Assembly: GCA_022768005.1 (NCBI GenBank)
Contig: JALEMF010000016.1
Span: 1 to 39,386, forward strand
Direction: 5' to 3'
Source of the DNA: Bacteroidales bacterium
GTDB taxonomy: Bacteria; Bacteroidota; Bacteroidia; Bacteroidales; Muribaculaceae
DNA length: 39,386 nucleotides
Part shown: positions 6,596-39,386 of the stretch, piece by piece
Layout: each line of letters opens with the position of its first letter
Numbering within the stretch: the stretch's first letter is position 1
The notes under the pieces: generated by a model
Databases searched by the model: none
What the model was told of the DNA's origin: nothing
Seen by the model: only the letters and a program-made list of their open reading frames with translations
Translations under genes and position numbers: made by a program

Positions 6596-8335
6596 TCAAA
6601 ACAATTTAGTCTTGTTAGGATTGATGCACACACCGAGTATAGCATCACTTGTTTCACCATAGCGGAAACATTTCTTCTTATCAGGGTCGTAGTAAACGAT
6701 ACCTTGACCAAGACGAGATGCATCATTTGCTACAGGACGGAAACCGAAGTAAACACGACCTGTTTCCTTATCAAGGGCGAGCTGACTGGTGTAAACACCT
6801 TCATCAGCAGTAGTATTGATCGGGTCTGCCTCCATAGCTATTTTAACAGTAGCATCTCCCATAGCAACAGTACTGTTGTAATCAGGCAAGTTGTACACGT
6901 TAAGACCTTCATCAGCAGCAAGACGCCAGATGTAAAGTTGCTTACGTTCTTCATCGATAGTGAATGTACGAAGTTTAATACCTTGGCAAATGATCTGGTA
7001 AGGTGATTCAGCCTTATCGGCATCAGCCTTGGTAGTATAGATATCAGAGTCTTTGAAACGGAAAATACCGTTACCTGAATAGTTCTTAGCCCAATACCAC
7101 ATACCCTTTGAATCACGATAGTGACCTGCTGAGATGGCACCGTAAGCAATACCGCGTCCGTAGTAAGGAATATATTCATTATGGAATGTGTATTCAGAAC
7201 GTTGACCTGTAGATGTAGCACCTACGACTTCACCGCGAGCGGTAAGGTCAATAGCACTTACACCCTGGTTACGGTCAGAGTAATACAACTTACCGTTTGC
7301 AACGAAACCTTGGAACGGGTCATTGAATGCATATCCGCCGACGTTGGTGATAACAGTGTTAACACCTGTACCGTCAACACGCATAGCAGTGATAAGACCG
7401 TCACCGAGTGTACCTGATTCGTCGTTTACGTAGTAATATTGTTTACCGGCATCAAGAATGTAAATCCAGCCTTCCTTAACTTTCGCACCCTCTTCGTTTT
7501 CTATCTCAACTTCACCGTAGCAGATGTTGAAAGGAGAGTTACCGGATTTGACACCCATATCGAATGGCATCACCTTAGTACCCTTAGGAAGTAAAGAAGA
7601 ATCGATAAGTTTGATAGCCTTGATATTACCATCGCGCTGAGCGTAGTAAAGTGTAGGAGCCTCAATAGAAGAACCAACTTGTACGTTCAAGTAAGCATCT
7701 TCAAGACGGCGGTTTTCACCATCAAGGTCAAAGTATGTCTGGATTTCAATCTTTTGAGAACCTATATTCTTGAAAGAAACTTCACCCGGATATTGAACAG
7801 TGCCATCGCTTTCAGCATAGCCTGTAAATGAAGTGATAGGCTTACCGTTAGCATCAACAGTACCGTCCGGGAAAGTCCATTCGTAGCGTACTCGAAGGTT
7901 TTCAGGGTTCGGAAGAGCAAGTTTGAATGAAACCTTAGTGTCATTGATTTCAATAATGTCTGTTGACTGGCTCTCGATAGAAAGAGAAGGAGCAATGTCA
8001 AAAATCATAAGAGGCTCTTCTTTGTAGCCAACTCCGTCAAGAGTTAATCTTACAGTGTATTGACCTGCTTTAGCGTATTTGTGAACCGGATTTGCTTCAG
8101 TAGAAGTAGTACCGTCACCGAAGTCCCAAGTGAATGTTCCCGTTTTAGCGGAAGTGTTGGTGAACTGAATACTCGAAACTACGTAATAGTCGAGCGTGTA
8201 TTGGTCGCCATCAACACTATAACTAAAGTCAACATCCTCTGAAGGAATGTTAATATAGTCTGCTTCTTTGTCAACGCAGGCAGTCATAGCGACTGCAGCT
8301 GCGAAGAAAAGGGCTATTTTATTAAATAATTTCAT
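6596..8335 (-). CDS. PKD-domain surface lipoprotein of the SusCD operon
   Basis: A 579-residue protein. The lipoprotein signal has lipobox AMTAC with the modified Cys at C20. Residues about 35-110 form a PKD (Ig-like) domain with the signature WDFGDG (70-75) and NPVHKYAKAGQYTVRL. The rest is beta-rich, with blade-like segments such as LYYAQRDGNIKAI, GKLYYSDRNQGVSAID and KQLYIWRLAADEGLNVYNL. That is compatible with a beta-propeller-like ligand-binding module, an inference. No catalytic motif is seen. It is the last gene of susC-susD-lipoprotein-PKD, 32 bases after its neighbour. Such tail-end lipoproteins usually bind the polymer imported by SusC/SusD at the cell surface. The substrate is unknown. 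Confidence 0.82.
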   Translation of the reverse strand: MKLFNKIALFFAAAVAMTACVDKEADYINIPSEDVDFSYSVDGDQYTLDYYVVSSIQFTNTSAKTGTFTWDFGDGTTSTEANPVHKYAKAGQYTVRLTLDGVGYKEEPLMIFDIAPSLSIESQSTDIIEINDTKVSFKLALPNPENLRVRYEWTFPDGTVDANGKPITSFTGYAESDGTVQYPGEVSFKNIGSQKIEIQTYFDLDGENRRLEDAYLNVQVGSSIEAPTLYYAQRDGNIKAIKLIDSSLLPKGTKVMPFDMGVKSGNSPFNICYGEVEIENEEGAKVKEGWIYILDAGKQYYYVNDESGTLGDGLITAMRVDGTGVNTVITNVGGYAFNDPFQGFVANGKLYYSDRNQGVSAIDLTARGEVVGATSTGQRSEYTFHNEYIPYYGRGIAYGAISAGHYRDSKGMWYWAKNYSGNGIFRFKDSDIYTTKADADKAESPYQIICQGIKLRTFTIDEERKQLYIWRLAADEGLNVYNLPDYNSTVAMGDATVKIAMEADPINTTADEGVYTSQLALDKETGRVYFGFRPVANDASRLGQGIVYYDPDKKKCFRYGETSDAILGVCINPNKTKLF

Positions 8336-8367
8336 AGTGAATGAATGTTATTATGTAGTTTGACGTA

Positions 8368-9450
8368 TTAGTTGATTGTAATTTCACGCTTATCTGATGC
8401 AATACCTTCATTGCCTTCAGTGTCATATACGTGGAACTCAGCCTCAAGAACGTAATTACGATTAAAGTTAACAGCGTAAGACTTGTTAGCAGTATCGTAA
8501 ATCCATTCTTCGAATGAAATCAACTCAAGGAGTTGCTTGAATGCAGGATAGTATTCCGGACGTACTGTTGAAACGATAGCACCGGCATCGTCATCGTAGC
8601 GGCAGAATACCCAGTTACAAGATTTGTAAACAGGATAGTAGTTAATGCCTTCAATCGGTTCATAGTCCTTAGCCACTTCATGATAAACTTTTTTGCCTTG
8701 TTCATCAAGAGTAATATAGTAGTAACCTACGATACCTGCATCGTAAGCGGTAGTAGTAGTGAACCAACGGTCAGACTTGTCACCCGCACCGTTATCGGAC
8801 TTCATCTGAATGTCTGTAGGAAGATTAACACCGTGAGCGGCATTAGCTTCAGCAAACTGTTCATTTGTGAACGGATAGTTGATGTAAGCGTATTTAAGTG
8901 CTTCGTAGTAAGTGTCATCTTTAGTAAGATAATCCACTACAGTCTTCTTAAACTCGTCAGCAAAGCCTTCAGGGAAGAAACCGTCGAACTTGAATTGGTC
9001 CCAAGTGGCAACGTTAGCCCAAGTGACAGGAGACAAAGTAGAAGAAGTAGGAACTTGTCCTGAGATTACGAATTCGTGTCCGTCCCATTCAGCAAGAGAG
9101 TGAGCGAAAGATACTACGCTTTGATTAGTGCGGACAACGTCAGAGTTAGCCACTGATTGTGAATACTTGAGAGTAGTTCCGCAGAGCTTCACTGTTGCTT
9201 CAGCAGTTTCATTACGAGTGATTTTGTACCACACTTCACTGTGATCAGGCACGTGCTTGTCCTCAGTGTAGTATTTACCTTTGAACTCGAAATTTTCACC
9301 GGCTTTACATGCAGTGGAAGTAACTTCCCAATAGCAAGTCGGGAGTCTTTCACCCATTTCCGTTTTGTCTTTGAACAAATCGTGCTTAGCGCAAGAAGAG
9401 AGAGCGACTAATGCAAAAGCCAGAATACTTGATTTATATAATAATTTCAT
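8368..9450 (-). CDS. Surface lipoprotein of the SusCD operon, family not recognised
   Basis: A 360-residue protein with a lipoprotein signal (lipobox LSSC, Cys at residue 20). The remainder looks like two or three beta-sandwich domains with a helical insert near residues 170-215. Notable segments are TCYWEVTSTACKAGENFEFKG at the mature N-terminus and a final strand-rich block NRNYVLEAEFHVYDTEGNEG. I do not recognise a named family. Its place between susD and the PKD lipoprotein (42 and 32 bases) and its lipobox make a surface-exposed accessory binding protein of the uptake complex the best reading. No hydrolase motif is visible. Confidence 0.75.
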   Translation of the reverse strand: MKLLYKSSILAFALVALSSCAKHDLFKDKTEMGERLPTCYWEVTSTACKAGENFEFKGKYYTEDKHVPDHSEVWYKITRNETAEATVKLCGTTLKYSQSVANSDVVRTNQSVVSFAHSLAEWDGHEFVISGQVPTSSTLSPVTWANVATWDQFKFDGFFPEGFADEFKKTVVDYLTKDDTYYEALKYAYINYPFTNEQFAEANAAHGVNLPTDIQMKSDNGAGDKSDRWFTTTTAYDAGIVGYYYITLDEQGKKVYHEVAKDYEPIEGINYYPVYKSCNWVFCRYDDDAGAIVSTVRPEYYPAFKQLLELISFEEWIYDTANKSYAVNFNRNYVLEAEFHVYDTEGNEGIASDKREITIN

Positions 9451-9492
9451 ATCGTTTTATCGTTAAATGTTGATTATAAAACTTTTTACGAG

Positions 9493-11355
9493 TTATTCTT
9501 CAGTCAAACTTTTGCGTGTGCCTGCCTGTTCCGCCCAAATCATAGGCTTGCGGAGCCATTGATAGTTCTTGTAAGCACCAAGACGTTCAAGTTCTTGTCT
9601 GTTGTACTTATCTTCAGTTTCAGGGTCGTAGTTTAGACGTTGAATCCAAGTATTTTCCTTTTCAGCTTCAGTCAAACCGTCAACCCAATATGCAGAATAG
9701 AGGTTGTAAGGACGACGAAGTGTAGGATAAATGATTTCTTGAGCATCACCGATACCGTAGTTGTTACGCTTGTCAGAGAAGTGATAACGACGCATATCAG
9801 TGAATTGTTCCGGTTGCATATACATTGAGATGTATTTCTGCTCCATAAGGTCAGAAAGAGTGTAGTTTGCTTCATCAAAGAACCAATGTTTGTTACCTAC
9901 TTCAGTACATGCTTTTGTCTTAGGAGTTACAGAACTTGCCAAGTTCTCAAGGAACGCAGTTTCAATGTGTTCAAAACGTAAGCGGTTTGTTTGGTTAACT
10001 TTTTCGTTAGTGTTAGGCACACAACCTTCACCCGGGTAAAGACCCTCATTGTCTGCAAGGAAACGTTCAAGGTGACGTTCAATATTGTGTTGAGTAGCCT
10101 CTTTAGCGAGTTGACATGCACGAGCTTTATTGCCCATCCAGTACTGTGCTTCTGCCTGAATGAAGTAAAGTTCTTCCATTGTGAACAAGCAGTTGTAAGC
10201 ATCATTTCCGCCTGCGTATGCACCTGCGTAAAGTTTCGGATAGTGTGCTTGCTTGTAAGTAGAACCTGCACCGATGTTGTTTTCAAGGCAACGGTACATT
10301 ACACTTGGAGAAGATACAGTTGCTGATTTAGGACCTGATTGCGGTACCATAAGCAAGAACAAACGAGGGTCAGTACCATAACCGTTATCACGGTTCCAAG
10401 TACCTTGGTTGTCAGTTCCCGGGTTAAGAAGACCGAGAAGGTCAACAGCGAAGAATTTAGAAGGAACTGCTGAAGTAAGTTCGTTTGCACGAGATTCCCA
10501 CGAGTTGATTTTAGGTTGGCTTTCACTCCAAGGAGCGTTTTGTTCACCTGTACCGCCTGAGAATACGTAACGAGGTTCATTACCGAACCATGCACCGTAA
10601 CGAAGGTCACCTGAACGCCAAATATCTATAGCCTTTTGAGCAGCATCGTAAATAGCCTGGCAAGTAGCGGCACTTGTATCAATGTTAGGAATATTGCGAA
10701 GAAGAAGACGAGCCTTGATAGCATATACAAGACCTTTCCACATCTTAAGGTCACCTGCATAGATGCGGTCCATAGTTTGAGAAATAGGAAGGTTTGATGG
10801 ATTGTTGATATAGTTATCGTCTTCGTAAAGTTTGCACAACTCATCAATTTCTTCAAACATATATTTATATATAGATGCTTGAGTATCGTATTTAGGTGCA
10901 TTTGAGAGGTAAGCCTCAGTACGCGGCATATCACCGAATGCATCAGTAGTGAGCTGCATTGACATCAACTGGATAGTGCGGGCAATCAATTCAAAGTTCG
11001 GAGAATTAACGGACCTGGAATTTTCAATAAGAATATTACCGTTACGGCCGATATCGTAGAAGTGACGACGCCACTGCGGGTGACGGTTCATTGAAAGAAA
11101 CTCCCAACCGCTCTTATATGCGTAAGAACCGGTCTGGCTTTTACCCATAGTGGTGAGGCACTGTGACAAGTAGATGTAATATTCTGCATGGTCATATACG
11201 GATTGATTTGCATAGAAAACCAATACCGGAAGTGCTTGACTCGGTTCGTTGGTGTGAGCCTTGTCCGGGTTGACATTGTCTTTAAGAACATCTTCACAAC
11301 CGGTGAGGCTTATCCCCAACAGAAGAGACAGTGCTATATATTTTAATTTATTCAT
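9493..11355 (-). CDS. SusD/RagB-family nutrient-binding outer membrane lipoprotein
   Basis: A 620-residue lipoprotein (lipobox SLTGC, Cys at residue 20) with the helical TPR scaffold of SusD proteins. Recognisable parts are LKDNVNPDKAHTNEP near the start, RTIQLMSMQLTTDAFGDMP (SusD core), DLKMWKGLVYAIKARLLLR (TPR helix) and LYFIQAEAQYWMGNKARAC. A C-terminal EQKYISMYMQPEQFTDMRR block follows. It forms the lid that captures a glycan or peptide over the SusC channel. It lies 26 bases downstream of susC and is cotranscribed. Length is typical of larger, less-characterised SusD types (500-650). With no glycosidase nearby, a peptide or non-glycan substrate is possible. Confidence 0.95.
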   Translation of the reverse strand: MNKLKYIALSLLLGISLTGCEDVLKDNVNPDKAHTNEPSQALPVLVFYANQSVYDHAEYYIYLSQCLTTMGKSQTGSYAYKSGWEFLSMNRHPQWRRHFYDIGRNGNILIENSRSVNSPNFELIARTIQLMSMQLTTDAFGDMPRTEAYLSNAPKYDTQASIYKYMFEEIDELCKLYEDDNYINNPSNLPISQTMDRIYAGDLKMWKGLVYAIKARLLLRNIPNIDTSAATCQAIYDAAQKAIDIWRSGDLRYGAWFGNEPRYVFSGGTGEQNAPWSESQPKINSWESRANELTSAVPSKFFAVDLLGLLNPGTDNQGTWNRDNGYGTDPRLFLLMVPQSGPKSATVSSPSVMYRCLENNIGAGSTYKQAHYPKLYAGAYAGGNDAYNCLFTMEELYFIQAEAQYWMGNKARACQLAKEATQHNIERHLERFLADNEGLYPGEGCVPNTNEKVNQTNRLRFEHIETAFLENLASSVTPKTKACTEVGNKHWFFDEANYTLSDLMEQKYISMYMQPEQFTDMRRYHFSDKRNNYGIGDAQEIIYPTLRRPYNLYSAYWVDGLTEAEKENTWIQRLNYDPETEDKYNRQELERLGAYKNYQWLRKPMIWAEQAGTRKSLTEE

Positions 11356-11381
11356 ATCTTTTTTGCTATTGAGGAAGATTA

Positions 11382-14300
11382 TTAGAATGTTAAGTTCACG
11401 TTAAAGTTGAAGCTGCGGAGTGATGGAACTGAGTAGTTATCAATACCCATGCTACCTGTACCTGATGCTACGCCTGACATGATTTGAGGGTCACTGCCGG
11501 TGTATTTGGTAAGAAGGAAGAGGTTACGTCCTGTGAGAGAACATTTAAGACCTTTGATTGGGTTTGAACCGCCGAGTTTCTTCATATACTTGCTGAAATC
11601 GTATGCTACTGTCACGTAACTCAAACGAATGTAAGAACCATCTTCGATAAAGTTTGAAGATACGTTGTAGAAGTAGTTGGAGATTGTCTGTTGGTCAAGA
11701 ATGATAGGCTTGGTGTTCGGAGCGTATGTTCCATCTGCTTGTTCTACTACGCCTTTGAAGATTGCTTCACGGTTACGATAGTTTTCAAGAATGTAAGCCT
11801 GACCGTTTGAAAGGAGTCCGCGACCTGTAACATTTGCAACGTCACCACCTACACGACCGTCAACGAGGAATGACACTGAAAGGTCTTTCCATGTGAAGTT
11901 AGAGCCGAAACCGAGCAAGAAGTCAGGTTCACGATTACCGATAAGCACACTCTTTGTAGGATTGATTTTAGGATAACCGTTTTCGTCACAGATTACTTGA
12001 CCGTCATCAGTTCTGAGGTAATCCTTACCTGTGATAGAAGTACTTGAACCGTTAAGGTAAGCAGATGCGAAGATATCACCGAATTGTCCACCTTGGATTT
12101 CAGTAATTCCGTCAGGCAATGATTTTACCTTACCGCGGTTAAGAGAGAAGTTAAGAGTTGCTGTCCATTGGAAGTCACGGTTTTGAATAATGTCTTGGCT
12201 GAGTGTTGCTTCAACACCTGTATTTTCAAGGACACCTTCATTACGTGTTTGCAAAATAGTACCTGCTGCCGGTGATACACGAACTGTCACAATTTGGTTG
12301 TCAGCAGTTGTTGAATAGTATGCCAGGTCAAGTCTTGTCTTTGAATTGAAGAAACGCAAGTCAGCACCAATTTCCCATGTTTTAATCATTTCAGGTTGCA
12401 AATTTTTATCCGCAATAGCAGTAGTCGGGTCTATTGAGAAACCACCGTCAGGGAATGTAGCCCATTTCTTATAAGAAGGAGTGAAAAGATAACTTGAACA
12501 GTCCTTACCTACTTTTGCCCAGTTACCACGGATTTTACCGTAAGAGAACCAGTCGTTATGCAAGTTGAAAAGTTCAGAGAAGATTACACCGGCAGTAAAT
12601 GACGGATAGAAGTAAGATTTTTTCTGTGCTTGTAGCAAGCGAGAAGTAGTATCAATACGTCCTGTCGCAGAAACTTGTACCATACCTTTGTAGTCATAAC
12701 GGAGTTCACCGAAGTAACCGTATTTATTCCAACTTGTGTGGTAAAGAGAAACGTTTGAAGTAGAGAACCAGTTGTCTGAGATATTATTTAATGAGTAGAA
12801 GTCACCGCCGAGAATAAATTCAGTACCGTCAATACCTGCTTCAAGTCCATTGTACTCAGTGTATTCACTACCGACGAATGCTGATACGTTGTGATCTTTT
12901 GTGATATCGTATGAATAGTTGATAAGACCTTGTACAACTAATTTATTACCTCTTGAAGGAGTGAAAGAATACGTACCCATACGTGAAGCGTACGATTCGT
13001 AAAGTGCACTATTCTTAAGTTCATCAAGTGAAACTGTAAATTCGTCACCTTTGAAACGTTGACGAGTATAAGAATCGTAAGTAGAGTGAGAACGGTCGTT
13101 ACTTACTTTTGCAGTAAACACGAGATTCTTGATTGGTTCCCAAGAAAGTGAACCGTTGAGGATAACACGCGTGCTTTCAGTCTTTGAATCGTCCATATAA
13201 CGGCTGTAATACGGAGATAGAGTAGCATTAATACGCTGACTGTCAGTAAGTGAAGCCCAATCGTCGTATCTGTTTGACCAGTTAGGATAACCTTCAAGTG
13301 TACGGTAGTCACTCATATCTTTGTTGACAGCCCAACCGTAGATAGTTGACATTGAGTTACCGAACCCGCGTGATTTTGTATCAACATAGTTAATTGAAGC
13401 CAAGGCCTTTACGGTTTTTGACAACTTGAATTCACCTTTAAGGAACATACCGAGTTTCTTCTTGTAGTCGTCGTGTACAACACCTTCAGCATCAAGGTAG
13501 TTAACAGAAGCGTAAGCAGAGAACTTTTCGCTACCGCCTGACACTGAGAAGTCATATTTCTGTTGGAAACCAGTACCGAGGAAGTTACCGAGGTTGTCAT
13601 AAACCTGCTCATCAGAATTAAGACGAGGACCCCAACCGCCTGCGCTGTTTGAAACGTAGAAACCGTTGCTACCAGGTCCGTAAACCTTTTGAAGATGCGG
13701 AGTGTTAAGCGTATTGGAAATTTCCCAACCACCTGATGCGGTAGTTTTCAATTCACCTGCTTTACCACTCTTGGTAGTGATAAGGATTACACCATTAGCA
13801 CCTTCAGTACCGTAAAGTGAAGAGGCTGCAGCACCTTTAAGTACACTCATCGTTTCAATATCATTCGGGTTGATATCAGCCATTGAAGTTGCTGAGCCGC
13901 TGATTGCCATACCATCGATTACGAATAGCGGTTGGTTGTTCTGAGTATTGTTTATTGAAGAAATAGAGCGGATAACGATTTGTGAAGCAGAGTTCGGAGA
14001 ACCGCCCGCCATACCTACTTGAACACCGGCAACCTTACCTTGCAATGTATTTACGAAGTTTGTACTTTGACCTGCAGTAAGTTCATCGCTGTTAAGTGCC
14101 TGAACGGCATAGTTCAATTTTTTCTTTTCTTGAACTTGTCCCATGGCTGTTACAACAACTTCTTGAAGAACTGTTGAATTTTCAGTCATTACAATGTCAA
14201 CCACATTTCGGCTGCCTACTTTCTCCGTAACGGTATTCATACCGACGTAAGTAAACACCAAAACTGCATCGTCGCTCTTGACGTCGATTGAATATTTTCC

Positions 14301-14462
14301 ATCTATGTCAGTGCTGGTACCCACCTGAGTACCTTTCACCATAACCGATGCACCAATCACCACGTCACCGTCACTCGCTTGTGTGACAGTACCTGTGACG
14401 GTGCGACCCATCATAGTCACCGTTACGATAGAAAACAACAGAAACAATAACTGTTTTTTCAT
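11382..14462 (-). CDS. SusC/RagA-family TonB-linked outer membrane transporter
   Basis: A 1026-residue receptor. A signal peptide leads into a carboxypeptidase-D regulatory-like domain (about residues 21-95, GTVTQASDGDVVIGASVMVK). The TonB-box-like EVVVTAMG follows at 101-108, then the plug domain with LFVIDGMAISG and SSLYGTEGANGVILITTKSG (to about 233). The large barrel ends in SFNFNVNLTF. It imports the ligand bound by the SusD partner, driven by TonB-ExbBD. It is the first gene of a four-gene operon with a 5' leader of about 160 bases. A -7 box lies at 14632-14639 and a long inverted repeat at 14538-14576. No ECF sigma/anti-sigma or hybrid two-component regulator is in the window. Confidence 0.96.
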   Translation of the reverse strand: MKKQLLFLLFSIVTVTMMGRTVTGTVTQASDGDVVIGASVMVKGTQVGTSTDIDGKYSIDVKSDDAVLVFTYVGMNTVTEKVGSRNVVDIVMTENSTVLQEVVVTAMGQVQEKKKLNYAVQALNSDELTAGQSTNFVNTLQGKVAGVQVGMAGGSPNSASQIVIRSISSINNTQNNQPLFVIDGMAISGSATSMADINPNDIETMSVLKGAAASSLYGTEGANGVILITTKSGKAGELKTTASGGWEISNTLNTPHLQKVYGPGSNGFYVSNSAGGWGPRLNSDEQVYDNLGNFLGTGFQQKYDFSVSGGSEKFSAYASVNYLDAEGVVHDDYKKKLGMFLKGEFKLSKTVKALASINYVDTKSRGFGNSMSTIYGWAVNKDMSDYRTLEGYPNWSNRYDDWASLTDSQRINATLSPYYSRYMDDSKTESTRVILNGSLSWEPIKNLVFTAKVSNDRSHSTYDSYTRQRFKGDEFTVSLDELKNSALYESYASRMGTYSFTPSRGNKLVVQGLINYSYDITKDHNVSAFVGSEYTEYNGLEAGIDGTEFILGGDFYSLNNISDNWFSTSNVSLYHTSWNKYGYFGELRYDYKGMVQVSATGRIDTTSRLLQAQKKSYFYPSFTAGVIFSELFNLHNDWFSYGKIRGNWAKVGKDCSSYLFTPSYKKWATFPDGGFSIDPTTAIADKNLQPEMIKTWEIGADLRFFNSKTRLDLAYYSTTADNQIVTVRVSPAAGTILQTRNEGVLENTGVEATLSQDIIQNRDFQWTATLNFSLNRGKVKSLPDGITEIQGGQFGDIFASAYLNGSSTSITGKDYLRTDDGQVICDENGYPKINPTKSVLIGNREPDFLLGFGSNFTWKDLSVSFLVDGRVGGDVANVTGRGLLSNGQAYILENYRNREAIFKGVVEQADGTYAPNTKPIILDQQTISNYFYNVSSNFIEDGSYIRLSYVTVAYDFSKYMKKLGGSNPIKGLKCSLTGRNLFLLTKYTGSDPQIMSGVASGTGSMGIDNYSVPSLRSFNFNVNLTF

Positions 14463-27743: not shown

Positions 27744-27770
27744 AAAATAATTTTAGAGTTCGAACAGGCA

Positions 27771-27834
27771 CAAAAAAAATTATCCGTCATCACGACGAAT
27801 AATCTCTTACCTTAAATCTAATACCATGAAAAAC
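27771..27834 (-). ncRNA. Candidate small transcript (about 60 bases) upstream of pheT
   Basis: Three signals line up on the minus strand. A -7 box TAACTTTG lies at 27840-27847. A 6-codon frame ATG-GTA-TTA-GAT-TTA-AGG-TAA (27807-27827, peptide MVLDLR) begins about 6 bases after the expected start of transcription. A hairpin ATTATTCGTCGTGATGACGG plus ATAAT (27779-27803) follows at once, with an A run on the plus strand giving T7-T8. This is a complete terminated unit, ending about 28 bases before the pheT -33 element. It could be a small RNA, or an attenuated leader whose readthrough reaches pheT. The frame has no Phe codons, so ordinary Phe attenuation is unlikely. Confidence 0.5.
27772..27803 (-). 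terminator. Terminator of the small transcript
   Basis: On the minus strand ATTAT-T-CGTC pairs with GACG-G-ATAAT around loop GTGAT, followed directly by T7-T8 (27772-27778 as A on the plus strand). Confidence 0.75.
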
Positions 27835-27839
27835 TTGTA

Positions 27840-36117: not shown

Positions 36118-36500
36118 AAAGCAGCCGGACGTCTCGTCGCTGACAAGATTTTTTACTTGTTTGAGGAAAGTCCGGGCAACATAGAGCACCATATTTCTTA
36201 ACGGGAAGTTATCGGCAACGGTAAAGGCAACGTGACAGAAAATAACCGCCACTGACGTGGTAAGGGTGAAAAGGTGGGGTAAGAGCCCACCGGGTGGCAT
36301 AGTGATATGCTGCGCCGCACGCCTTATGGGTTGCAAGGTCAAGTATACCGCCATTTAAGGGTTGCTCGCCCATTGGCGGGGGGTAGACTGCTATAGAACC
36401 GTGGCAACACGTTTCACAGATAAATGACGAGACGCTGATGTTGGCTCGCTCCGGCGATAGTGACTCAGCGACATAACCCGGCTTACAGTTCGACTGCTTT
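36118..36500 (+). ncRNA. rnpB: RNase P RNA (bacterial class A)
   Basis: The catalytic RNA that matures tRNA 5' ends. The universally conserved 5' block GAGGAAAGTCCGGGC (P4 strand 1 region) is at about 36162-36176. Further conserved parts are GGTAAGGGTGAAAAGGTGGG and GGGTAAGAGCCCACCGG (P11-P12 area) and CAGATAAATGACGA (P4 strand 2 neighbourhood, about 36418). The closing CATAACCCGGCTTACAG is near 36471. The ends AAAGCAG (36118-36124) and CTGCTTT (36494-36500) pair as P1, and the following T run makes P1 double as the transcription terminator. Length, about 380 bases, is typical. Confidence 0.96.
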
Positions 36501-36596
36501 TTTTATTTTACTATTCTACATATTTTAACATTCTTAAATGTAACCAAACCATATTCCGCTACGTCTATATCACAGAAACAAAAAACAGACGCAGAT

Positions 36597-37328
36597 ATGA
36601 AAAAAATATTCAAATACGCTATCGCATTAACGGCAATTCTCTTTATTGCAAGTTGTTCAAGTTCTCGTGAATATTCCGACGCAGACCATAAGATAACCAC
36701 TACAACGTTAGACGTCACATCTTTCAAGAGAATTGACGTTTCATCAAGCATTCAGGTGGTATATACTCAGAGCAAAGAATACTCCGCAAAAGTAGTTATG
36801 CCTAAATACGTCAATGAGTTTTTCAAATACAATAATAACGGAAACACCCTTGAACTTCACCTTGACAGAGGTTGGAACTTTGACGTGGATAGCGAAAATA
36901 TCGTGGTGTATATTTCAGCTCCTTGCATCACCGGAGTAAGCATTGCCGGGGCTTCCACTTTTAATGCCGAGAGCATCAATCAGCTTAACAAGCCGTTAAA
37001 TATCGAATGTGCAGGGGCTTCTTCCGTAACTATTGACAATTCTTTCGTGGAATGTTTGAATCTGGAGTGTGCAGGAGCAAGTGTATGCAACATCAATGTC
37101 AAAACTGCTGACGTTAACGCGGTTTGTGCCGGAGCTTCTAAAATAATTCTTTCAGGCAAGGCTAACAGAGCGAATCTCGAGGCTGCAGGCGCAAGCAGAA
37201 TTTACGCTAAGGAACTGAAGACTAAAAGCGGAGAAGTTTCTGCCGTTGGTGCATCTTCAATATCTTGCAATATTGACGAACTTAGTTCTAAAATTGCCGT
37301 TGGAAGCTCTTCCGTGGACAACAAATAA
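36597..37328 (+). CDS. GIN-domain (DUF2807) lipoprotein
   Basis: A 243-residue lipoprotein (lipobox FIASC, Cys at residue 20). It begins with the family's opening pattern FKRIDVSSSIQVVYTQSKEYSAKVVMP and then becomes a repeating beta-helix of short turns. It shows the typical recurrent A-G-A-S motif (IAGAST, CAGASS, CAGASV, CAGASK, AAGASR, AVGASS) at about 20-residue spacing. This is the head GIN / DUF2807 fold, common in Bacteroidota and of unproven function (an adhesin-like role has been proposed for relatives). It lies 36 bases upstream of an outer-membrane barrel gene, so the pair may act together at the envelope. Confidence 0.9.
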   Translation: MKKIFKYAIALTAILFIASCSSSREYSDADHKITTTTLDVTSFKRIDVSSSIQVVYTQSKEYSAKVVMPKYVNEFFKYNNNGNTLELHLDRGWNFDVDSENIVVYISAPCITGVSIAGASTFNAESINQLNKPLNIECAGASSVTIDNSFVECLNLECAGASVCNINVKTADVNAVCAGASKIILSGKANRANLEAAGASRIYAKELKTKSGEVSAVGASSISCNIDELSSKIAVGSSSVDNK

Positions 37329-37364: not shown

Positions 37365-38714
37365 ATGAAAAATTTATTCTTATCAGCACTCGCTATGTGC
37401 CTTTGTATATGCACATACGCTGAAGACGAAAAGACTGATACCATTGAGGCTCAGACACTTGCTGAAGTCACTATTGCCGCACCTAAAGTTATTCGTAAGG
37501 CAGATATGGACGTATATTACCCGAGTGTTTCCGCCGTTGAAAATTCCAAGAACGGATTACAAATCATTTCCAATCTGCGAATTCCTCAGCTGCTTGTGAA
37601 TGAACTTCAGAACAAAATCACTTCGGTAGGAAAAGACGTGCAAGTCAGGATAAACGGGCGAGTGGCTACTATTGAAGAGGTTCAAGCTCTGATGCCGGAA
37701 ACTATCAAGAGAGTGGAATGGATTGACAATCCGGGACTCAGATACGAAGGGGCTAATGCGGTGCTGAACGTTATAGTACGAAACCCGGAAGTCGGAGGTT
37801 CACTAATGTTAGATGCCACTCAAAGCGTACACAGCGGCTGGGGTACTTATCTTGCAGGACTTAACCTCAACTTCGGCCGTTCACAGTTTTCTATTATGGG
37901 AAACGGCAAACTCATCGCTGATTTCAACACTTCCAGAGACTATTACGAAACTATCACCTTCCCTGACGGCAAAAGTCTGACAAGAAAGGAAACGCCTGTT
38001 GACGGCAAACTTGACGGCTCTTCCGTTACCGGCAGACTCGGATACAGCTACATTAAGCCTGACACTACCGTCGTTTACGTTCAGTTCGGCTCTCACTGCA
38101 AGGTAAAGAGTTATTCTCGCTTCAACGGCAAAATGTCGCTTAGCGACGGCTCTGATGACATCTTTCTGACTAATATTCAAGATGGAAAAGGTTACACCCC
38201 TGCTCTATCTTTCTATTTGGAACAATATTTTGCTCACAAGCAAATGATTATCTTTAACTTAAGCGCATCTTTTTACACCGGACACACTTCTTCCGGATAC
38301 CTCGAGCAAGATATTAACAACAATATTCTCAACGATATAAACACTTACATCAAGGACCGTAATCAAGCATACGGCATTAAGGCAAATTACATTAAAAACT
38401 GGGACAAGTCTCGTCTCACCATCGGTGGTTCTTTCACGGCTAAACGAAATCGCTCTACTTACGTTGACCTTGACAACAGTGTTTTCCACCAGAGGCAGAA
38501 CATGACATATTTCTTCGGTGAATACTTTCAAAGGGTAAAATACGTCACTTTAACTGCCGGCATCGGTGCTGATTACTCTATTTTAAATTTCAGGAAACAG
38601 GAAAAGGAAATGACTCGTGGAACGTATCTCCACATTTTACCGCCACTTACAAGCCGAACAGCGTCTCACAGTTCCGACTTAATTTCTCCACTTGGCAAAA
38701 TACTCCCAATCTGA
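37365..38714 (+). CDS. TonB-dependent-receptor-like outer membrane beta-barrel protein, N-terminal part
   Basis: 449 residues up to a premature stop. The signal peptide (MKNLFLSALAMCLCICTYA) is followed by a short TonB-box-like stretch (TLAEVTIAAPKV) and a compact plug (about residues 45-145: VRINGRVATIEEVQALMPET, KRVEWIDNPGLRYEGANAVL). Beta strands of a large barrel then follow (TGRLGYSYIKPDTTVVYVQF, KANYIKNWDKSRLTIGGSF). There is no SusC-type carboxypeptidase domain, so this is the smaller outer membrane beta-barrel family. After about residue 415 the frame loses barrel character (TYLHILPPLTSR to the stop). A different frame continues the barrel from about 38600, so the gene is frameshifted. 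It is likely cotranscribed with the GIN lipoprotein. Confidence 0.85.
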   Translation: MKNLFLSALAMCLCICTYAEDEKTDTIEAQTLAEVTIAAPKVIRKADMDVYYPSVSAVENSKNGLQIISNLRIPQLLVNELQNKITSVGKDVQVRINGRVATIEEVQALMPETIKRVEWIDNPGLRYEGANAVLNVIVRNPEVGGSLMLDATQSVHSGWGTYLAGLNLNFGRSQFSIMGNGKLIADFNTSRDYYETITFPDGKSLTRKETPVDGKLDGSSVTGRLGYSYIKPDTTVVYVQFGSHCKVKSYSRFNGKMSLSDGSDDIFLTNIQDGKGYTPALSFYLEQYFAHKQMIIFNLSASFYTGHTSSGYLEQDINNNILNDINTYIKDRNQAYGIKANYIKNWDKSRLTIGGSFTAKRNRSTYVDLDNSVFHQRQNMTYFFGEYFQRVKYVTLTAGIGADYSILNFRKQEKEMTRGTYLHILPPLTSRTASHSSDLISPLGKILPI

Positions 38715-39386
38715 GCCAAACGAATGAAACTCCTCAGCAGATAGATGCCATTCAGTGGAGTATCGGCAACCCGAACCTTTCCACTCAATTTTCTTACAAT
38801 ATCGCTACAAAATACAGCTTCACACTACCGATTATCAGCGGTTCTTTCGGTGCTGAAGGTTATTTTATAGATAATGTCATTGCACCGTATATGTACTGGG
38901 AAGGCGACAGACTTATTAATTCCTACGAAAACGGAAAAGGTTTCCGACAATTCACTCTATGGTTTGCACCTGAAGTAACTGTGATCCCTCACTGGCTATA
39001 TCTTCAAGGCTCGGTAACTTACTGCGCAGAAAATTCACGCGGCGGGAACTACTCAATATATAATCACAACTGGAGCGGAAACGTTCAGGCTACGGTTTCA
39101 CACTACGGCTGTATGCTCTCCGTGATGTACAAACGCGCACAAAGACAACTCTACGGCGAAAGCATCATTTGGGGTGAAGATTGCACCTCAATAGACTTCG
39201 GATATAATTGGGAAAAATGGCAATTCGGTGCCGGGTGCTTTATGCCTTTCGGTAAATACGACCAAGGCAATATCTGCTACAACAAGTACAACAAAAAAGA
39301 ATTCCACCTCAAGCCGGATAGCCGATTCTTCTACATCAAAGTTGCCTACAACCTCCAGTGGGGTAAACAGAAAAAAGGTGTCAACA
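38615..39386 (+). pseudogene. C-terminal barrel of the same receptor, shifted frame, cut by window end
   Basis: In the frame two bases ahead of the upstream part, translation stays open from before 38615 to the window end. It reads as good barrel sequence: SWNVSPHFTATYKPNSVSQF, then NETPQQIDAIQWSIGNPNLS, LPIISGSFGAEGYFIDN and, near the end, FFYIKVAYNLQWGKQKKG. This is what should follow the first part. The switch falls in the A/G-rich run around 38592-38611 and would be repaired by adding one base there. It could be a real inactivating or phase-variable mutation, or a homopolymer error in the assembly. The natural end should lie just beyond the window. Confidence 0.8.

Follow-up and report, generated by a model that had tools for sequence, protein, structure and literature searches.

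A putative TonB-dependent receptor-like gene at the end of the window (the whole stretch of DNA analysed, 39,386 nucleotides) is divided between two reading frames, and is one base shorter at the point of division than its readable homologues. The reading we favour, with a probability of about 0.52, is that a single base was lost recently and that the sequenced population now carries a young pseudogene. An assembly or sequencing error follows close behind, so that the lean toward a real, recent inactivation is slight.

A barrel gene in two reading frames

The ORF at 37365-38714 on the forward strand codes for 449 amino acids; the barrel gene follows this frame for its first 408-409 codons, and homology to related proteins stops at about codon 408-411. 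A second frame, opening behind a TGA at 38570, has no stop as far as 39385 and contains about 268 residues corresponding to the rest of the barrel. The features of this region are as follows.

36597..37328, + strand: intact gene for a putative DUF2807 (GIN-domain) lipoprotein, 36 bp upstream of the barrel gene (Pfam PF10988, E=1e-21)
37365..38590, + strand: 5' portion of the barrel gene, read in the original frame, with signal peptide, plug-like domain and about 13 barrel strands
38585..38593, + strand: frame-switch interval, from codon-level comparison
38591..38610, + strand: A/G-rich run, read in the second frame from its start; Tandem Repeats Finder gives it a score of 33, with about three imperfect units of 7 nt
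38591..38714, + strand: tail of the 449-aa truncated ORF, read out of frame up to a TGA (38712-38714)
38594..39386, + strand: 3' portion of the barrel gene, read in the second frame and 45-48% identical to relatives (Pfam OMP_b-brl_3)

The frame switch reported in the initial annotation is therefore present, with two frames each carrying part of one barrel protein. The second frame had also been described as open to the window end, which is true because the contig itself stops at 39386, inside the gene and about 17 codons short of the end expected from relatives. Codon by codon, the upstream frame tracks the relatives up to the Phe of a Phe-to-Trp motif, and the residues directly after this Phe match in the second frame, placing the switch at about 38585-38593. 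It thus lies near the A/G-rich run, as had been claimed, but at the 5' edge of the run; the sequence GGAAACAGGAAAAGGAAATG, given earlier as the switch site, is already in the second frame by homology. The description of the site as homopolymer-type did not hold, since no run there exceeds A4, and A4 occurs 150 times in the window. The Phe-to-Trp stretch measures 26 nt in the window gene and exactly 27 nt (nine codons) in 95/95 loci with a readable motif. This comparison supports a deficit of one base relative to the readable homologues, and agrees with the earlier statement that one added base restores one protein.

The downstream piece matched the Pfam family PF14905 (OMP_b-brl_3) above the curated cut-off (E=2.7e-14; 53.5 bits, the cut-off being 27; covering positions 157-408 of the 408 in the profile), and the upstream piece by itself gave no Pfam match. 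Among the intact relatives, one (L007) scored 80.4 bits with the same profile, and another (L079) had no match to it at E 0.001. The predicted structure of the L079 protein (mean pLDDT 80.7) contained a plug region (about residues 52-145) and a long barrel. Its best Foldseek matches were the TonB-dependent transporters PhuR, Cir, HasR and BtuB, with E values down to 1.8e-18, TM of about 0.5 and high rmsd. A profile search against solved structures found no sequence relative. The structural model points to a TonB-dependent receptor fold, with an N-terminal plug and a barrel of about 22 strands, and the gene is predicted to encode a plug-plus-barrel outer-membrane protein, TonB-dependent transporter-like, of a Muribaculaceae-type genome. 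The PF14905 match and the predicted plug and barrel of the relative are shared with proteins of this family and fold in Bacteroidota; unlike these, the window copy is frame-broken, and its upstream piece alone has no Pfam match. When placed by homology on the predicted structure, the break falls in the turn after a barrel strand (L079 residues 399-414), roughly strand 13 of about 22.

Homologues and gene neighbourhood

Codons 1-411 of the upstream piece are 50-53% identical to intact relatives. Six gene copies from five further genomes of the genus matched both pieces, and each copy is one ORF of 696-726 aa. A strong match was found in 67 of 149 genomes of the family, nearly always as one ORF of about 690-740 aa, and 82 genomes had no strong match. 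On this comparison, the match of both pieces to a single continuous ORF in relatives makes the frame change far beyond chance. The named records with a homologue assign the family to Muribaculaceae (Duncaniella, Muribaculum, Heminiphilus, Paramuribaculum and others), and the closest homologues were about 50-57% identical in a single-protein scan.

One uninterrupted match was seen at 103 of 113 homologous loci, a count that includes some loci fetched twice. The remaining loci were cut by contig ends or carried large deletions or truncations, and a small frame change was found in the window gene only. Homologues divided at this point into two proteins, which the initial annotation had proposed to look for, were sought among these loci; none was split there by a small indel, and the single-gene reading therefore stands.

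Internal deletions or truncations of the barrel gene were located in three relatives (L144:3867-5148, L153:2676-3563 and L152:3140-3949). The L153 deletion (reference residues 218-615) is in frame and leaves an ORF of 295 aa; L152 retains only the first ~254 residues of the protein. The lesions in L152 and L153 sit in contigs of more than 2 Mb. These cases, together with the 82 genomes lacking a strong match, indicate that loss of the gene is tolerated in the family.

The neighbourhood of the barrel gene is not conserved. The DUF2807 gene adjoins it in the window and, according to Pfam, in L153; a tblastn search of 84 other loci (L153 not among them) gave no match for DUF2807 beside the barrel gene. 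In many relatives the gene upstream is instead Crp/Fnr-type-regulator-like (L073:3351-3911, L078, L122, L146, L097 and L129), and Pfam confirmed a cyclic-nucleotide-binding domain in that of L073. Elsewhere in the window, an RNase P RNA (class A) gene lies at 36121-36501, with an rRNA-methylase-like gene on one side and the DUF2807 gene on the other. An intergenic region of 800 bp holds, at 27770-27836, a match to the Rfam family BTncRNA_FopS, a Bacteroidetes small-RNA family, whose score only slightly exceeds the gathering score. The region 6596-14462 holds a CarboxypepD_reg/Plug outer-membrane receptor gene beside a SusD-like lipoprotein gene (a SusC/SusD-type pair), followed by further genes, including one for a PKD-domain protein.

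Age and origin of the lesion

Constraint on the two parts of the gene was compared on a fixed tree of 78 homologues and the window copy. In the upstream part the terminal branch of the window had a length of 0.75, in the downstream part one of 0.72. Their ratio of 0.97 is within the spread of the homologues (5-95%: 0.44-1.11), about 13% of which have an equal or higher value. Along practically the entire branch, then, the downstream half has been normally constrained. This, and the lack of a stop in about 268 codons, indicates that the lesion is either very recent or absent from the organism. An old pseudogene was ruled out on the same grounds, constraint being unrelaxed and further stops lacking. 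A separate C-terminal protein made by internal restart was also rejected, since ATG, GTG and TTG are all lacking from the second frame up to 38891 and no homologue shows a split at the break.

In the proposed course of events, an ordinary chromosomal gene for a TonB-dependent-receptor-like barrel would have lost one base recently. Translation would start normally and produce the plug and about 13 strands, followed by about 40 out-of-frame codons up to the stop at 38712-38714. The C-terminal barrel strand is required for barrel assembly. The product would be without its last third or more (about nine strands, the C-terminal one included), and no assembly in the outer membrane would be expected. 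The data show the frame break, the missing base, the intactness of the relatives and the recency; from the truncation we infer a loss of function, and we further infer that the organism itself carries the deficit. Among the 113 loci, only the window copy has the break. A check of the frameshift rate, in which ORFs of relatives were compared with 479 kb of the assembly (about 73 kb comparable, a part of the genome), detected the window gene as the only frameshift; a few signals consisting of stops alone resemble shadow ORFs on the wrong strand. This result indicates that the assembly is not full of indels. With a broken frame, intact relatives and little further decay, the gene has the features of a young pseudogene. 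It resembles recent bacterial pseudogenes with single-base frameshifts in its one-base deficit, its unrelaxed coding sequence and the intactness of its relatives, but differs from them in that a consensus error would give the window copy the same appearance.

An assembly or sequencing error, or a mixed-strain consensus, near the contig end is a serious contender, although we hold it somewhat less probable than even; the gene of the organism would then be intact and its product an ordinary barrel protein. Between the site and the contig end there is only 0.8 kb; the contig (39 kb) stops inside the gene and belongs to an assembly of 137 contigs (2.06 Mb, 92.75% complete), and support is usually weakest near such ends. 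Every readable homologue is intact at the site, and an artefact would equally leave the 268 downstream codons without a second lesion or relaxed constraint. The case for inactivation is further tempered by a comparison that rests on homologues only about 50-57% identical. Weighing against an error are the finding of no further frameshift in the roughly 73 kb compared and the lack of a long homopolymer at the site, while about 25 runs of at least 7 occur elsewhere in the window. Misassembly from a second copy was rejected: the genome has one close copy, leaving no template for misassembly, and the last 101 bases of the contig occur nowhere else in the genome.

Recent inactivation and sequencing error, two of the three origins offered in the initial annotation, thus both fit the data; the third, phase variation, found little support.

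Unlikely origins: phase variation and ribosomal frameshifting

It appears improbable that the break is bridged by -1 slippage (heptamers at 38582-38591) or toggled in the heptamer run, with the full barrel made sometimes or in part of the population. More doubtful still is a reversible ON/OFF switch driven by slippage of the A/G-rich heptamers alone, with the window as the OFF variant. Phase variation is common among surface proteins, and a weak 7-nt tandem repeat is located at 38591-38610, but its score barely exceeds the reporting floor of 30, its units are imperfect, and no homopolymer in it is longer than A4. It is not a pure repeat tract of the hypermutable kind. Published classes make most tracts this short proto-mutable or mutable, but place pentamers among the hypermutable repeats from three copies onward (PMC4235727, Table 1), so that the repeat by itself does not decide against slippage. 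The deficit of 1 nt, and not of one 7-nt unit, argues against it. The length of the region is the same in all 95 readable homologues, with no variation in repeat units seen among their sequences, and a tandem array near the site occurs in two only, with another period. According to PMC10939037 and PMC11892184, the best-documented form of phase variation in Bacteroidales of the gut is DNA inversion; inversion was rejected here, as the search for inverted repeats flanking the gene detected only weak, widely spaced ones and no convincing pair, and no long tract flanks the gene either. The gene is similar to phase-variable surface genes of the Neisseria and Haemophilus type in having a frame change beside a short repeat, but unlike them shows no long pure repeat, no repeat-unit difference and no length variation among homologues.

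Programmed -1 ribosomal frameshifting that yields the full protein is the least probable of the explanations considered, even though two overlapping X_XXY_YYZ heptamers (38582 and 38585), of a kind present at 0.4% of codons in the window, coincide with the switch and have the right frame, and a slipped product would keep the spacing of the relatives; the 79 nt downstream are less stable than shuffled sequences (z = +2.0) and form no stimulatory structure, the two heptamers are absent from the site in homologues, the nine GGGAAA-type heptamers seen at the site in homologues lie inside intact single ORFs, and loss of a base in short A/T runs would by itself leave such a heptamer.

Returning to the favoured reading of a recent one-base loss and to its closest competitor, what the window shows is either an ordinary broken gene or an artefact. 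The result matters mainly for annotation hygiene, in that two seeming genes at the contig end belong to a single barrel gene whose frame is broken in this sequence. Caution is due when contig-end breaks are included in counts of fragments and pseudogenes from draft genomes. If the break is real, the population would have lost one outer-membrane transporter-like protein, which would bear on its possible uptake.
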